A DNA stretch of 40,175 bases from Archaeoglobus sp. Its GTDB lineage: Archaea > Halobacteriota > Archaeoglobi > Archaeoglobales > Archaeoglobaceae. Below, in pieces: positions 11,081 to 38,617 of the stretch (positions are counted from its first letter, which is position 1; every line of letters starts with the position of its first letter). Where the stretch lies: positions 1 through 40,175 of the forward strand of contig JACDNU010000020.1 in NCBI GenBank assembly GCA_017656505.1. Reading direction: 5' to 3'. The notes under the pieces were generated by a model that worked only from the letters and a program-made list of their open reading frames with translations, was not told the origin of the DNA and did no database searches. The translations under genes were made by a program, and so were the position numbers.

Positions 11081-11449
11081 CTATAAGCCTAAAATTCCTT
11101 TTTCTCTTCCCATTCTCGTAATACCCCTCATCTCCCACTCCATAACCGGCTTAAACACGCTCCCATGATTTGGACATTTATACTCCTCATTTCTGCATAC
11201 TAAGCCATCTCCATCAGCTTCAAGCTCTTCCCCACAAAAACAGGTTAAAAATTCGAGAGGTCTTTGAACTGCCTCGTTAGCATTGAGAACTTCGGTCATG
11301 TTATCTCCCCAAGCCTTTGATGGATTGTAACATTCATTGCAAACAGGACAGCAACCGATGAGCTCAATGTTATCTTGAGATAGTTTTCTGCCGCAGTAAG
11401 AGCATTCAAGCAGTTTATCGGACTCTGATAAACGCTGTGCGTCAATCAC
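11081..11449 (-). CDS. zinc-ribbon protein of unknown function
   Basis: A 122-residue protein with several metal-binding Cys pairs: CSYCGRK near residue 16, CCPVCNEC near 33, CFCGEE near 70 and a later C with CPNHG near 92. I do not recognise a family. The arrangement suggests two small zinc ribbons, and a nucleic-acid or protein-binding role is only a guess. The GTG start follows a GGGAGG run by one or two bases, closer than normal, so the true start is uncertain. It is divergent from hicB. The frame continues open past its TAG stop, so the gene may be truncated. Confidence 0.6.
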   Translation of the reverse strand: MIDAQRLSESDKLLECSYCGRKLSQDNIELIGCCPVCNECYNPSKAWGDNMTEVLNANEAVQRPLEFLTCFCGEELEADGDGLVCRNEEYKCPNHGSVFKPVMEWEMRGITRMGREKGILGL

Positions 11450-17522: not shown

Positions 17523-18158
17523 GTGAAAGAACAGACCTATTACTTCTCAGCAGAAGAACTAAATCAGCTCCACATAAAGGCGGAGGATTTGTGGAGGGTT
17601 CAAGCTAAACAGGGATGGCAGAGGTCCCCCGTGAGTCCTATGGAAATTTTAGAGCTTTTCAAAGGAATACGGATTAAAGATGGTTACACACTGAGAGGGT
17701 ATATCTACAGAGAGGGTATGAGCGGTTTTGGAGTCGTCTGGGCTTTGCCGGAAGCCGAATTTCCTGAAGTTGAGAGATGCGAGAGACTCGATCTATTTGG
17801 AACGCCAAGGCCCAAAAATGCTATGCACTTCATGGATGTTCTTGAAGGAGATAAAACCCCACAGTCATACATCAACGCATCCCTTTTCTATCGGGAAATG
17901 CTGGAGTTTGGAGCCGTATGGCATGGGCTTTCATGGGGCTTGCACGAGATAATTGAGAGAATAGAGAGAACCGATTTATGGGAGGCTGAAGATCTTAGGC
18001 CCAAAGTGATTTTAGGAGAAAGAGCAATTGTAGAGTTCTACACTCTCTGTGGACTCTACAGGTGGAGGATCTTTAAACATAGGGATGTTTTCATTGGGTA
18101 TAGGATAAGACCCTCAGTAACCCTAATTGCTGAAGGAGAGAAGGGTTACGTGCCTTAG
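17523..18158 (+). CDS. conserved-looking protein of unknown function
   Basis: A 211-residue soluble protein that I do not recognise. It is rich in aromatic residues, especially Trp (LWRVQAKQGWQRS, VVWALPEAEFPEVE, AVWHGLSWGLHEII, YRWRIFKHRD). There is no signal peptide, membrane helix, Cys cluster or nucleotide-binding motif. The GTG start is supported by a GGTGA Shine-Dalgarno sequence at 17512-17516. It stands alone before the Lrp-TRASH gene, which may or may not be related. Codon use and composition look native, so I treat it as a real gene. Confidence 0.65.
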   Translation: MKEQTYYFSAEELNQLHIKAEDLWRVQAKQGWQRSPVSPMEILELFKGIRIKDGYTLRGYIYREGMSGFGVVWALPEAEFPEVERCERLDLFGTPRPKNAMHFMDVLEGDKTPQSYINASLFYREMLEFGAVWHGLSWGLHEIIERIERTDLWEAEDLRPKVILGERAIVEFYTLCGLYRWRIFKHRDVFIGYRIRPSVTLIAEGEKGYVP

Positions 18159-23787: not shown

Positions 23788-25113
23788 TCAATTCTGTTTC
23801 GATTGCTTTCCAATCGCCGAAAAAGTTGGCGTCTCGGGCTCAAGGATTTCCTTTACAGCTTCAAGAAATTCTGCATAGATGTGTGCATCAACGGCGAAGT
23901 GGTAGTATTTATGTCTGTTAAATCCGGTTAGCTCAGCAACGTACTGCGTGAGGGTAGAGAAAGCAAAGGCGTTCGCGTGCATAGCGCCATATATATCGTT
24001 GGATCGCATGAAGAAGATTCCATTCAGTCTTCTATTATCCATTCCTTCTTTCGACCTCTCTCCAACGAACTGATAGCCTCTTAAGCAAGGTGGCTCATCG
24101 CTCTCGATATCCCAGGGCCTTGAGATTCCTATGTAGCAATCCCTCCGATACGGATCTTCCTTTAGCTTGGTCAGGACTGTGTAGAACTGATCAACTGTCA
24201 CCTCATCTGCCTCGCAGCGCCTTGCTCTCTCGGCATAGGTGTAGCTTTCACCTTCTTTGAGTATATTTTCTTCCACGGGCTTATCTATGCATTTCGCATA
24301 GATCATGTACTCGTGAGCGTACTCTATAGCATACTTCTTCGTGAAAGGAGCCTTATCGTGAAGCTGATGCTCGTAAGGATTTTCTACTTCGATGAAGAGT
24401 CTGTGGATGAAACGACTTTCTTCCTGTCCCTCGAAAACCTCGCCCCACTCGGTTTTTTTCCTCTCTCCTTCATAGTAAACAGCCTCCATCGCCGAATGCC
24501 ATGCCGTGGATAGGTAATCCTCCTTAAGGTGAGTCGCTAACCTATGATGGCCAAAAATTTCCCTAGCTTTCTCCGATACCTTTTCTGCTTTTTCCTCATC
24601 TCTAACGTATACGTGCGGGATGGAAACGAGCATCGCAGCACTTCCAACGTCCAAGCCGGAGAGCGTATGGAGGACATCAAGCACATAGGTTATGAAGTCC
24701 GCGTTGTACATGAAGAAGTTGTAGGCATCGAGGGATCTGATGAAGGCTGTTGCATGGATTTTCCCATCGATGGGCAGGATGCTGATCTCCGTTATGGCTG
24801 GCGGGTTATCACAGAAGTGATCCTTAGGATTCCAGATTGGAATTGAAACTCTCCTCGTGAAAGGGCTAGATTTAATTTTGTTTGCAGCTTTGGAAAGTAC
24901 CGGCTCGATTCTGCTCGAATAACTCTCCCCGCAAAATCTCCATCCTGAAAAGTCACGTTCAAGCTTGAAAAAGTATGAAGGCTGCTCAACAACAACCAAG
25001 GTTGGCTCGCATCTGAGCGTGTTCCCAAATCTTGATTCGTAAGTATCTCCAGACTCCAGGATCTTTCCGATGAGCTTTGCTCTCGCCTCACTCCATTCTT
25101 TTGCTAGGATCAT
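23788..25113 (-). CDS. tandem thymidylate-synthase-fold protein; first domain lacks the catalytic Cys
   Basis: A 441-residue protein holding two thymidylate synthase (TS) domains. Domain 1 (about 20-175): R87-R88, W94, PPA with A106 at the catalytic Cys position, R126, D129, N137, H167, Y169. Domain 2 (about 235-425): R323-R324, W334, PPC with C343, R370, D373, N381, H411, Y413. Spacings Arg-to-Cys (20), Arg-to-Asp (3), Asp-to-Asn (8), Asn-to-His (30) and His-to-Tyr (2) match E. coli ThyA. TS is a homodimer sharing Arg pairs across subunits, so this may be a built-in pseudodimer. Product (dTMP or a hydroxymethyl nucleotide) and cofactor are unknown. A GAGGT Shine-Dalgarno sequence precedes ATG 25113. 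Confidence 0.85.
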   Translation of the reverse strand: MILAKEWSEARAKLIGKILESGDTYESRFGNTLRCEPTLVVVEQPSYFFKLERDFSGWRFCGESYSSRIEPVLSKAANKIKSSPFTRRVSIPIWNPKDHFCDNPPAITEISILPIDGKIHATAFIRSLDAYNFFMYNADFITYVLDVLHTLSGLDVGSAAMLVSIPHVYVRDEEKAEKVSEKAREIFGHHRLATHLKEDYLSTAWHSAMEAVYYEGERKKTEWGEVFEGQEESRFIHRLFIEVENPYEHQLHDKAPFTKKYAIEYAHEYMIYAKCIDKPVEENILKEGESYTYAERARRCEADEVTVDQFYTVLTKLKEDPYRRDCYIGISRPWDIESDEPPCLRGYQFVGERSKEGMDNRRLNGIFFMRSNDIYGAMHANAFAFSTLTQYVAELTGFNRHKYYHFAVDAHIYAEFLEAVKEILEPETPTFSAIGKQSKQN

Positions 25114-25350
25114 CGAACCTCAATTTCCGAGTTTTGATAAAAGCTTTGTGGGGCTTTTCTACAAATCGTTTTAAATGCACTTTAATACGGTTTAATCTAA
25201 TCTCGCTCCAACAAATCCAATCAAATCAATTAAATTTTCTCCATTTTTCAACAGTAAAATGCTTTTCACCACAATTTTCCATGTATTTCCCTTTCAGAAA
25301 TCTCAACTCCGACAAAACATTTAAGTTTCATTTAATGCATACAAAGAGGT

Positions 25351-26971: not shown

Positions 26972-27370
26972 TTAAACCTGTTTAAACTTGTCTTCAATCT
27001 TCTTAATCGCTTTGATCACGTTAAAATAGTCTCCATCGATTCTGAAGCTCTCCACCGTATTCAGCACGACATCTTTTCCAACGTGTTTCTCAAGTTTGTC
27101 TCTTAACCTTTCGGGTAGGACAACTTCCCCATTCGGGCTTAGATGTGCTGGAAGACCGACGATTCTGAAGCTCTTTCTTAGGAAATAAGGTGGATTTCTC
27201 TCATCCAAGATTTTTATTCTCGCCTCTGTCTCACCGACTATTATAGAGGTGTTGAGGTGCAATGCTTCCTCGTTTATACCGAGTTCCCTTTTTCCTACCT
27301 CTTCTGTAAAGCCACCCAGCTTACTGACATACGTTTCCGCCAACACCTCTATTGGATATGCATACATCAA
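26972..27370 (-). CDS. protein of unknown function
   Basis: A 132-residue soluble protein that I do not recognise. Its first half is hydrophobic-alternating (TSIIVGETEARIKILDERNPPYFLRK), then GEVVLPERLRDKLEKHVGKDVVL resembles an AbrB-like or structural hairpin segment, but not well enough to call. No signal or metal motif is seen. A TATA-like box (minus-strand AAATTTATATGG, 27392-27403) lies 27 bases before the ATG at 27370, which supports this start and leaderless expression; Met2 is the alternative. It is separated by 52 bases from the Nip7-like gene and may be co-transcribed with it. Confidence 0.65.
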   Translation of the reverse strand: MMYAYPIEVLAETYVSKLGGFTEEVGKRELGINEEALHLNTSIIVGETEARIKILDERNPPYFLRKSFRIVGLPAHLSPNGEVVLPERLRDKLEKHVGKDVVLNTVESFRIDGDYFNVIKAIKKIEDKFKQV

Positions 27371-34576: not shown

Positions 34577-35728
34577 CTAACTTTCAGCCTCCCAAGGTGG
34601 AAGGAGCCAGGAAAGAATGTAGAGGATTACGAAAGGAAGTGCCAATATCCCGAGAGCGAGAGTGAGGCTTTCTGCCCCAAAAACAGGCATGGAATAGCTG
34701 CTGAATCCCCTGAGAGTCTTTGAAAGTATCTGCCCGCCTATTACGACGTTCCATCTCATTGCGAAAACGCCTATTAGGGTTAATATCGATGCCAAGGTGA
34801 AGATGGCGGTTTGCATTTTTGGCTTAAACAGTTTTGTCAGAACGATTAGAAGAATCGGAATCAGTGCTCCAGCAACCATCTGAATTCCTACGAAAGTGAG
34901 GAAGAGCTTGTCTACTATCAGTCTGGCTATGAGCTCCGTCCCTTCCTCAGCTGCATAGAAGATATGGGTTAATTCGACAAACTCCAAGCTGAGATCGAGA
35001 ATGTAGCTGTAAAGGAGATAGGATGCAAGCGTGTCAACGCAAGCAGCATCTGGTTTCTTTCCTCTAAGCTTGCTGCCGAAAACGTAGATCATCATCACCA
35101 GAGCTATTCCCGAAACCATCGCGGAAAAGAGAAAGATTATCGGAGTTAGAGGTGAGCTCCACCATGGATTTGCTTTAACGCTTCCAAAAATGAAGCCAAC
35201 ATAGCCGTGCAGAAACGCTGCAGATGGTAAGCCGATAACGGTTATCCAGTAAACGACCTTTTCATCACTTTCCACAGCCTCTTCGCTGACATCTCTGTCC
35301 CCCAAGGTTAGAATTCTGTAAATAAATCCCTTTATGACAGATTGCGAAACCCTAGAGGCCCATGAAACGATATCCTTTCTGTAGTCGTAGTAAATCTCCA
35401 GCAGCAAAACGACGAGCAGATACCATGCATAGATGAAGCCGAAACCGGCCATGGCAGAGGAAGAGTGAGGTGTGAACATTATCTCGAATGCCCTCTCTGG
35501 ATGGCCAAGATGGGCTACCAAGGGCAGGGGGGCGGTGAGCAAGAAAGCTAATGCGGTGAGCAAGGAGAGTCTGTAAACCGGCCTGAGCTTTGCTACGTTG
35601 AAAACTCTTAGCAGTGATGCAACTATGAAAGCTCCCGCAACAAGTCCTGTGATGTAAGGATAGACCGCTATGAGGACACTCCAGTAGATCTCCGCTTCGT
35701 TCGGATAGATAAAGCCCTCAAAATTCAT
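34577..35728 (-). CDS. nrfD: NrfD/PsrC-type quinone-interacting membrane subunit
   Basis: A 383-residue membrane protein with about ten helices, of the NrfD/PsrC/DmsC type that exchanges electrons with menaquinone without a haem of its own. PLPLVAHLGHPERAFEI is the conserved segment near the quinone pocket. A cytoplasmic-looking insertion (about 130-160, ILTLGDRDVSEEAVESDEKV) separates helices. A GAGGTGAAGG Shine-Dalgarno sequence is well placed before the ATG. It is the last gene of the cytochrome operon, 27 bases after the ferredoxin gene. It probably passes electrons between the quinol pool and the ferredoxin subunit. Confidence 0.9.
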   Translation of the reverse strand: MNFEGFIYPNEAEIYWSVLIAVYPYITGLVAGAFIVASLLRVFNVAKLRPVYRLSLLTALAFLLTAPLPLVAHLGHPERAFEIMFTPHSSSAMAGFGFIYAWYLLVVLLLEIYYDYRKDIVSWASRVSQSVIKGFIYRILTLGDRDVSEEAVESDEKVVYWITVIGLPSAAFLHGYVGFIFGSVKANPWWSSPLTPIIFLFSAMVSGIALVMMIYVFGSKLRGKKPDAACVDTLASYLLYSYILDLSLEFVELTHIFYAAEEGTELIARLIVDKLFLTFVGIQMVAGALIPILLIVLTKLFKPKMQTAIFTLASILTLIGVFAMRWNVVIGGQILSKTLRGFSSYSMPVFGAESLTLALGILALPFVILYILSWLLPPWEAES

Positions 35729-35755
35729 CCTTCACCTCTCTTTCATCGTCATCTT

Positions 35756-36526
35756 TCACCTCACATCCGAATCTATGCCGTAGTAAAGCACCTTAGGCTT
35801 CGTGCCCATTTCCGGCTTCAAAGTTCTCAGGCCTTTGAGCTGTTTGATTTTTTGTAGCTTAGTTTTGTATGCCGAATCTTGATCTTCCGAATCCAGAAAG
35901 ATGAACTGTCTCGCCCCCGTTGGACAAACTTTAACGCAAGCCGGCTCTAAGCCCTTTCTGATGCGGTGATAGCACCATGTGCACTTATCAGCAGTCCCGA
36001 CTCTGGATTTTACGGGACCAGAAGAGGGATAGATATATCTTGCACCGTAGGGACAGGCCTGGATGCAGTATCTGCAACCGATACAGTACTTCTCATCGAC
36101 AAGCACAACTCCATCTTCCGTTTTAAATGTAGCCCCAACCGGGCAGACCTGGACACAGGGTGGCTCTTCACACTGGTTACAGAGCTTCGGAACGAAGTAG
36201 CTCTTTTCAATTTCATCCTTTTCAAGAATTTCAGTTATTTCAGTCTCAAATCCGCCAAAGCCTCCGTTTGGAGAGTCAACTTTGAGCTCTCCATCTTTAA
36301 GCCAAGTGTATCTCTCGATCCACGTTCTGAAGTAAATAGGCTCCAGAGGTACATCGTTTTCAATTTTGCAAGCTATCACACACCTCCCGCAGCCGATGCA
36401 TTTGGTAACATCAACGAAGAAAAGGTAGGCCGGTTTAGTCGACTTACTCGATTTAACTTTAAGCTGTAAACCCGCCGCAGCAACTCCAAGGCCAAGGATC
36501 GAGAGTAGAAATTTTCTCCGTTTCAT
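35756..36526 (-). CDS. nrfC: Tat-exported four-cluster ferredoxin (NrfC/DmsB type)
   Basis: A 256-residue iron-sulfur protein with 16 Cys in four groups: CIGCGRCVIAC, CNQCEEPPCVQVC, CIGCRYCIQAC, and CTWC with a later CVKVC; four [4Fe-4S] clusters are expected. The N-terminus KRRKFLLSILGLGVAAAG resembles a twin-arginine signal, so the mature protein should face outside the membrane. It would link NrfD to the cytochromes. The ATG overlaps the tetraheme stop codon by one base (TGATG), with a GGAGGA site before it. Confidence 0.92.
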   Translation of the reverse strand: MKRRKFLLSILGLGVAAAGLQLKVKSSKSTKPAYLFFVDVTKCIGCGRCVIACKIENDVPLEPIYFRTWIERYTWLKDGELKVDSPNGGFGGFETEITEILEKDEIEKSYFVPKLCNQCEEPPCVQVCPVGATFKTEDGVVLVDEKYCIGCRYCIQACPYGARYIYPSSGPVKSRVGTADKCTWCYHRIRKGLEPACVKVCPTGARQFIFLDSEDQDSAYKTKLQKIKQLKGLRTLKPEMGTKPKVLYYGIDSDVR

Positions 36527-36993
36527 CAGGATTCTCCTCCCACCGGGTTATGGGGATTGTGGCATCTCAAACAATCCCAGTACTTGTTATGCTCAACGGA
36601 AACTTGCGGAAAAGACTCTGGCTTGCTAACGCTCACACCATGGCAGCTGAGACAGAATTCTATGCTCGAATTAAACGCTTTTAAACTTAAAAATTCGTCG
36701 TATGCGGTCTCTTCAGGATTCTCTGCATGCGATTTTAACAGGCCATGGCAACTCTCGCAGCTTATGTTTCTGTGTTCTCCAACACTCCACTCCGCAAACT
36801 CATTTCCATGGCAGTTGAAGCATCTATACTCTTCCCCAATTTTTGTTTCTAAGCCCGCAATTTCCTCGACCGAAGCGTTTCTATACCATCCTACCTCACC
36901 AAAAGTAGGGGGAACTAGGACTGCCCTTAAAGCAAAAAAGATGATGACCCCTGCGAAATAAAGTATCAGTATTCTCGTGCTGACTTTTCTCAT
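36526..36993 (-). CDS. membrane-anchored tetraheme cytochrome c
   Basis: A 155-residue cytochrome with an uncleaved-looking N-terminal helix (ILILYFAGVIIFFALRAVLV) and four CxxCH haem motifs: CFNCH, CESCH, CLSCH and CLRCH. Extra His residues (for example GEHRNI, LLKSHAEN and SVEHNKY) are candidates for sixth ligands. It probably shuttles electrons between the ferredoxin/NrfD part and the octaheme protein. It starts 19 bases after the octaheme stop codon. I cannot match it to a single named subfamily. Confidence 0.9.
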   Translation of the reverse strand: MRKVSTRILILYFAGVIIFFALRAVLVPPTFGEVGWYRNASVEEIAGLETKIGEEYRCFNCHGNEFAEWSVGEHRNISCESCHGLLKSHAENPEETAYDEFLSLKAFNSSIEFCLSCHGVSVSKPESFPQVSVEHNKYWDCLRCHNPHNPVGGES

Positions 36994-37012
36994 ACCGATC
37001 TCAGGCTAACAA

Positions 37013-38533
37013 CTATTTCAAGAATCTCACCGTAGCAATGGCAGCGGCGACTACTCCGATCAGACCTCCCCAAACAATTTTGAGATTTGTGTTATCCTCT
37101 GGCTGCTTAGGTTGCTCCGGTTGCGTAGCTTGCGGAGCACCGGTCTGGAGGCTCTGGGTAGAAGAAGTTAGAGTTGCTTTTTCACCCCTGATCTTTTTCT
37201 GCGTCTCGTACCAGTCGATCATCCTTCCAAGCTTGTCGAAAACGGTGTCAACAGCTCCATTCCAGTGTGTGTAGTCGGGCCCCATCATCGAGGCTCCCAT
37301 CCTCCATCTCCTTCCGTCGTGATGCCATACATAATACCACATGAACTCCGGAAACTCATCTATGGGATTCGATTTATCGATCAAACCTTCGTCGTACATC
37401 TTGTTAAGCAAAGCTAGGGTGTACTTAGCGGTTATATTATAATCCTCTAGCACCATTTCGTATTTCTTGAAGTAGTTTTCAACCCACTCTGGACTGTGAC
37501 ATTGCATGCAGACTTTTTCCATTCTCTCCCTGTTCTCCTCTCCCAGTTCCTTATCCGGCTTAAATCCGCCTGCCGCTAGGTTGGAGTTCGAGCTCTGATA
37601 CATTATGAACTTCGCTTGGATTTCCCATTTAAGCCTCGATCCAACGTCATGTGTCCCTGAAACAATTACCTTACCACTCGGATTGGCAATCTCACTCATA
37701 TGGCATGCAGCACATGTAGGGGCTGAGAAATCAGCGCCGGCTTTCCAAGGCATAGCTGTCCAATTCCAGTTCTCCTCATCTGCTTCATATCTGGCTCCAT
37801 GGTGGCTTTGCTCGTAGATCTCTATCTGTGGGTGATCGGGCCCGAGGTGGCACTTACCACACGTTTCTGGTTTTCTAGCTTCTTTTATGCTAAACTGATG
37901 AGCTGTATGGCACGAGCTGCACGCCCCAATACTTCCATCTGGGTTTATTCTCCCTACTCCTATGTTCGGCCATCCCACAAGCTCTCCATTCTCGGCATAA
38001 ACGTAGCTGCCATGACATTCAAGACAGCCCAGAAGCTGGTTTGCATGCATGAATTCCGGCACATCGTTTATTCCTGTTTTTTCAAGCACACCGCTTGCGG
38101 GATAGAGAGGAGTTACGAGATCCCTTATGAATTCTTCAGGCGGGTTCTGTCTTGCTGTGTCCGAATCGAGGGGGTTCAAGCCCTTACCAACCATAGCCTT
38201 ATACCACGTTTTCAGTGGCCCGTTTATCGAAGCGTATGCGTGTTTGCTCTTTGAGTTTGCAAGATACTCCTCTTCATGGCACATTGCACATTTTTTGGGA
38301 GAGACTACAGGTGTTATCCAGTATCCATGATGCTCCTCCGCGTAATCGCCTTCTTTTACCTGATGACACACGTAACAGTTAACTCCAACCTCGAAATGCT
38401 TGCTCCTTTTCCAATCCTCAACTATGGAGGGTGTCTGAGAACTATGACATGCGACGCAGAGCTCTTCAGATAAGACTGGGAATGAGAGAAGGCTAAGCAA
38501 GGATATCAGAAATACCACTTTCAGATATTTCAT
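37013..38533 (-). CDS. octaheme cytochrome c of the hydroxylamine-oxidoreductase-like family
   Basis: A 506-residue secreted multihaem protein with eight CxxCH motifs (CVACH, CYVCH, CAMCH, CLECH, CSSCH, CGKCH, CAACH, CMQCH). It has a signal peptide (VVFLISLLSLLSFPVLS), a Gln/Pro/Thr-rich linker and a C-terminal anchor helix (IVWGGLIGVVAAAIATV). Haem number, an early SKHFEVGVNCYVCHQ and a late GPDYTHW segment recall the HAO-like octaheme family, which includes hydroxylamine/hydrazine oxidases and nitrite or hydroxylamine reductases. Direction and substrate are unknown. I chose the ATG at 38533; an upstream frame to 38578 would place 15 residues before the signal, and a TATA box (about 38563) lies 30 bases before this ATG. 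Confidence 0.88.
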   Translation of the reverse strand: MKYLKVVFLISLLSLLSFPVLSEELCVACHSSQTPSIVEDWKRSKHFEVGVNCYVCHQVKEGDYAEEHHGYWITPVVSPKKCAMCHEEEYLANSKSKHAYASINGPLKTWYKAMVGKGLNPLDSDTARQNPPEEFIRDLVTPLYPASGVLEKTGINDVPEFMHANQLLGCLECHGSYVYAENGELVGWPNIGVGRINPDGSIGACSSCHTAHQFSIKEARKPETCGKCHLGPDHPQIEIYEQSHHGARYEADEENWNWTAMPWKAGADFSAPTCAACHMSEIANPSGKVIVSGTHDVGSRLKWEIQAKFIMYQSSNSNLAAGGFKPDKELGEENRERMEKVCMQCHSPEWVENYFKKYEMVLEDYNITAKYTLALLNKMYDEGLIDKSNPIDEFPEFMWYYVWHHDGRRWRMGASMMGPDYTHWNGAVDTVFDKLGRMIDWYETQKKIRGEKATLTSSTQSLQTGAPQATQPEQPKQPEDNTNLKIVWGGLIGVVAAAIATVRFLK

Positions 38534-38617
38534 ATAAAGGAATTGAGAGACCCCATACTTAAAATTGAATACGAACATTTCCGAAATTATTAAAATGTTT
38601 AAATATGACTAAATTCA

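Follow-up and report, generated by a model that had tools for sequence, protein, structure and literature searches.

Thymidylate synthase (TS) of the ordinary ThyA type is a symmetric dimer in which the phosphate-binding Arg pair of each active site comes from the other subunit. The TS domains of the protist DHFR-TS fusions still form a symmetric two-site dimer, and the half-the-sites reactivity of the TS dimer, in which one protomer is idle as the other works, has been studied largely with asymmetric mutants that had been built. In the E. coli enzyme, the phosphate of the dUMP bound by one protomer is contacted by R126 and R127 of its partner, and when one protomer of a heterodimer carries R126E/R127E, only one site is functional, the one in the mutant protomer (PMC5981203). 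According to a 2023 study, experimental work on archaeal TS is still scarce (PMC9931769), and no description of a tandem ThyA was found in the open-access literature. Here we describe such a protein from Archaeoglobus, in which two TS domains are joined in one chain and only the second carries the catalytic cysteine.

Two TS domains in one chain

The gene lies in the window, i.e. the whole stretch of 40,175 nucleotides that was analysed, and its features are collected in Table 1. The open reading frame begins with ATG, and this start is supported by a TTTATC box about 25-30 nt upstream and a GAGGT a few nt upstream, both recognised by eye. Neighbouring genes (AOR, JAB-domain, RibL) were dropped as functional evidence, since this context is common only to close congeners. 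Elsewhere in the window, the minus strand of 34577-38578 encodes a multihaem cytochrome, a smaller haem protein, a 4Fe-4S ferredoxin-like protein and a polytopic membrane protein, a cluster that looks like a membrane redox complex. Three further window ORFs, 17523-18158 (211 aa), 26972-27370 (132 aa) and 11081-11449 (122 aa), had no Pfam match.

Table 1. Features of the tandem TS gene and their positions in the window.
Feature	Position	Strand	Remark
Whole gene, tandem ThyA-family protein, 441 aa	23788..25113	-	Sole PF00303 protein of the genome
Promoter/RBS-like stretch, TTTATC box and GAGGT before ATG	25114..25150	-	By eye
Domain 1 (D1), residues 1-192, TS fold without nucleophile (A106)	24538..25113	-	
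Domain 2 (D2), residues 193-441, predicted catalytic TS domain	23791..24537	-	
Codon of A106, position of the catalytic Cys (E. coli C146)	24796..24798	-	
Codons of R87 and R88 (E. coli R126/R127)	24850..24855	-	Predicted D2-site phosphate contacts
Codon of C343, putative catalytic cysteine	24085..24087	-	
Codons of R324 and D325, D2 donor positions (E. coli R126/R127)	24139..24144	-	
Residues 353-359, 7-residue loop insertion	24037..24057	-	Absent from most relatives
Codon of W223, within the T-E/Q-W-G motif of D2	24445-24447		

The presence of two TS domains had been proposed from the sequence alone, and it held when each half was scanned by itself. The PF00303 profile gave 29.9 bits for residues 1-223 (D1, E=4e-7) and 71.1 bits for the remainder (D2, E=1e-19), both above the curated cut-off of 24.3. 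In addition, a profile of D1 examples matched solved TS chains at E=1e-11, and the D1 and D2 profiles aligned with each other over 179 columns (E=3e-14). On the basis of these separate matches and profile alignments, the two-domain match is not due to chance. The first half was TS-like in every homologue, and all 11 of the D1 examples scanned matched phage TS families. The best NCBIfam match was TIGR03283 (methanogen-type TS) with 128.3 bits, below its equivalog cut-off of 174.55.

In the full-length AlphaFold model, which used an alignment of 7 sequences and had a pTM of 0.74, most of D1 reached pLDDT 80-95 and the core of D2 66-86, and the N-terminal part of D2 stayed below 50. The PDB matches listed by a structure search with this model were TS or TS-fold enzymes and, with D1 confidently modelled, there was no sign of a lone TS fold. 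D2 modelled alone (AlphaFold, 7 rows) reached a mean pLDDT of 46, too poor for use; this would fit, weakly, a domain that needs its partner.

Active-site residues across 51 tandem proteins

The residues named in the sequence-only reading are all found at the numbers it gave in the 441-residue protein, and its description of D1 as lacking the nucleophile was borne out. The Cys position, A106 here, is occupied by Ala in 46, Ser in 3 and Thr in 2 of the 51 tandem proteins and by Cys in none, and Cys is present in all single-domain archaeal relatives aligned. The donor pair R87/R88 of D1 is kept in 51/51, and R126, S127, H167, Y169 and Y65 are also invariant. Of the 192 positions in D1, twelve show a conservation of at least 98% (G30, Y65, R87, R88, E109, T122, R126, S127, G157, H167, Y169 and R171), and seven of these twelve belong to the TS active site, namely Y65, R87, R88, R126, S127, H167 and Y169 (hypergeometric p ~2e-8). 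D129 and N137, which occupy the cofactor and base recognition positions of D1, are variable. To judge from this pattern, D1's own phosphate and ribose residues may hold the interface together, or a nucleotide may still be bound.

In D2, C343, R370, S371, D373, N381, H411 and Y413 are each found in 51/51. The residues of D2 were mapped by phmmer alignment to Lactobacillus casei TS and by profile alignment to E. coli-type TS, which pair R324 with E. coli R126, D325 with R127 and R323 with S125. The D2 Arg pair had earlier been placed at R323/R324, one residue off, and the donor pair of D2 is therefore Arg-Asp, not Arg-Arg. R324 is conserved in 51/51, and position 325 is Asp in 43/51 and Arg in 5 outgroup tandem proteins. 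One of the lent Arg residues, the counterpart of E. coli R127, has been lost from D2 in most Archaeoglobales.

Two statements on spacing survived in part. D1 had been said to reproduce every E. coli spacing; this is exact after A106, but the step from R87 to A106 is 19 residues, one short of the 20 in E. coli. Between C343 and R370 of D2, the 7 additional residues are real in this protein; the insertion is missing from most relatives, and the D2 of the family therefore mostly has the standard spacing. D2 is nevertheless not a textbook site, since the region of the Arg-bearing loop (R21 in E. coli) contains no Arg and the position of E264, tentatively aligned by eye with E. coli E58, varies between E, D, S and N among the tandem proteins. 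A T-E/Q-W-G motif stands in place of this loop in 51/51.

Compared with the attributes of a ThyA, the catalytic Cys with its accompanying Arg, Asp, Asn, His and Tyr is complete in D2, whereas D1 lacks the Cys. The Arg pair donated to the partner site is present as R87/R88 of D1. Two equivalent sites from identical chains are not found; the two domains differ and the nucleophile is in D2 only.

Distribution, genome content and origin

In a survey of 60 relatives, the tandem protein was found in nearly every Archaeoglobales genome, and overall the two-domain arrangement is present in almost all members of the order that were examined, as well as in three other families of the phylum. Among 393 genomes of the phylum, a full-length profile identified it in 47 from Archaeoglobales and in 5 from families f17, f26 and f29, a few of these matches being fragments at contig ends. 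No tandem protein was found outside these groups in the 393 genomes or in the class of G172, which was also searched. Named relatives in public records belong to Archaeoglobus and other Archaeoglobales, and no phage tandem relative with 80% coverage of the query was found.

Among 34 Archaeoglobales genomes that are at least 90% complete, 26 have the tandem protein only, 5 have ThyX only, 3 have both and none has neither. The alternation gives ~2e-4 in a one-sided Fisher test that ignores relatedness, and the 5 ThyX-only genomes represent two genera. The Archaeoglobales genera without the tandem protein are mostly ThyX carriers, and the sister family in the class carries ThyX alone. In five genomes of the Archaeoglobaceae genera g8 and g12 (G012, G016, G022, G026 and G031) the tandem TS has apparently been replaced by ThyX, and in genus g6 the two are both present. 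One 72% complete Archaeoglobaceae genome (G033) is without tandem TS or ThyX and carries three single-domain ThyA-family genes with Cys (L099, L100 and L101), possibly through contamination or transfer. In family f17 (L119, 5783-10430), the tandem TS gene has within ~30 bases downstream a match to the large subunit of archaeal DNA polymerase II (PolD-type) that the window encodes.

The genome that contains the window is 99.6% complete and has one ThyA-family gene. ThyX (PF02511) had no match anywhere in it, neither DHFR nor thymidine kinase was found, and the genome does encode thymidylate kinase and a dUTPase-family protein. When the genome was checked for thyA and thyX, as had been suggested, the tandem protein was left as the only TS candidate, and with no second ThyA, ThyX or thymidine kinase it is the only visible route to dTMP.

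A maximum-likelihood tree with single-domain TS recovered a D1 clade (support 100/98) and a D2 clade (100/97) as sisters (97/91), with the single-domain methanogen-type TS outside the D1+D2 clade. The tree program warns that long branches meet; a tree without the long rows had the same shape, with weaker support for the sister relationship (81/96). Since D1 and D2 are sister clades, they go back to one old internal duplication, which took place before Archaeoglobales split from f17, f26 and f29. D1 has diverged faster, with a mean pairwise identity of 0.48 against 0.68 for D2, and where dS is measurable its dN/dS of 0.04-0.07 indicates strong purifying selection. In two species, the loci L025 (G024) and L026 (G032) are ~95-97% identical in D2 and the flanks and differ by ~30% at the DNA level in D1 only (dS 3.2 for D1, 0.17 for D2). 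The differing block covers TS codons 1 to ~155, and D1 looks to have been exchanged by recombination as a block.

A candidate one-site pseudodimer among known TS systems

It is likely that the tandem protein is an obligate pseudodimer whose one live site, in D2, converts dUMP to dTMP, probably with methylene-tetrahydromethanopterin; the intramolecular pairing, the activity and the cofactor are those that we infer. Two ThyA domains would have been fused after the internal duplication and then specialised. D2 would be the only working site, built from C343, R370, S371, D373, N381, H411 and Y413, and D1, without its nucleophile, would act as a fixed partner supplying R87/R88 and the dimer face. 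The reaction would most likely be dUMP + methylene-tetrahydropterin to dTMP + dihydropterin. Tetrahydromethanopterin as the carrier is suggested by the lack of DHFR together with the C1 metabolism of Archaeoglobus, with which it is consistent. A pseudodimer with one live site had been put forward in the sequence-only reading, and the data agree with it: the nucleophile is gone from D1, a donor Arg is gone from the Archaeoglobales D2 and the D2 site is invariant. A one-site pseudodimer would lead one to expect just this complementary loss. That reading had left the substrate as dUMP, dCMP or something else, and the Asn at 381 favours dUMP over dCMP.

A possible but somewhat doubtful extension is that, with D2 as the only catalytic site, a nucleotide (dUMP, dTMP or another phosphate ligand) is bound by D1 as well, not for chemistry but in a regulatory role. 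The seven active-site residues among the twelve most conserved D1 positions speak for this; by homology, R126, S127, H167 and Y169 point into the pocket of D1 itself, for which a pure Arg donor has no obvious need, and R324, the Arg donated to D1, is invariant. On the other hand, most Archaeoglobales have Asp in place of the second Arg that D1 would receive, in heterodimers of E. coli TS one binding site is abolished when both donor Args are made acidic (PMC5981203), and the conserved D1 residues lie near the dimer interface and are maybe kept for structure. We consider it rather unlikely that D1 combines the Arg donor with a nucleotide-sensing allosteric site, in an obligately asymmetric TS whose half-the-sites behaviour was hard-wired by duplication and fusion. 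There is also a minor chance that two chains dimerise, with D1 of one completing D2 of the other in a domain-swapped or higher-order assembly whose live sites would again be of a single kind. A stretch of ~34 residues lies between the conserved parts of the two domains, which is in favour of such an exchange; pairing within the chain is simpler, and specific counter-evidence was not found.

It is very unlikely that D2 is a nucleotide hydroxymethylase or another TS-fold modifying enzyme instead of a dTMP-forming TS. TS-fold dCMP/CMP-modifying enzymes are among the structure matches and D2 is unusual around the R21/E58 positions, but such an enzyme would leave the nearly complete genome without any other TS, ThyX or thymidine kinase, and the tandem protein alternates with ThyX across the order. 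Moreover, dCMP hydroxymethylases have Asp at the substrate-selecting position (E. coli N177), where D2 has Asn (N381) in 51/51. An assembly or sequencing artefact, or a pseudogene decaying in D1, is scarcely credible. The faster evolution of D1 would fit decay; however, the frame is open in dozens of species, the low dN/dS of D1 tells against loss of constraint, and the invariant residues persist at only 33-37% protein identity. Single-contig genomes among the carriers exclude an assembly artefact, and recurrence across species refutes the reading as a whole.

If the one-site pseudodimer is correct, a whole archaeal lineage appears to have fixed an asymmetric TS. The tandem protein identifies how Archaeoglobales most likely make dTMP. 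A natural one-site system would also allow the role of a protomer as partner to be measured apart from catalysis. With ThyA (PF00303) and TIGR03283 it shares the fold, the active-site map, the short archaeal length of each domain and the Cys in D2; it differs in having two domains per chain, one of them without nucleophile, and in its score below the TIGR03283 cut-off. ThyX has the same cellular role and takes the place of the tandem protein in two of the family's genera, but its fold and mechanism are unrelated and it is absent from this genome. The TS-fold phage dCMP hydroxylase (PDB 9iqc/9iqu) gave the top structure-search matches of the full model, and the D1 profile aligns to it over positions 2-177; that enzyme, however, is a single-domain phage nucleotide-modification enzyme, and the likeness seen is one of fold and profile. 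In the DHFR-TS of protists the TS domain is likewise C-terminal in a fused chain, with DHFR as the fusion partner. A further parallel is the engineered E. coli heterodimer of wild type and R126E/R127E (PMC5981203), in which one protomer lends the Args and the other holds the only functional site. By this analogy the tandem TS would be a natural counterpart of the engineered one-site heterodimers, with the difference that it is fused and fixed by evolution and that its D1 has also lost the Cys.
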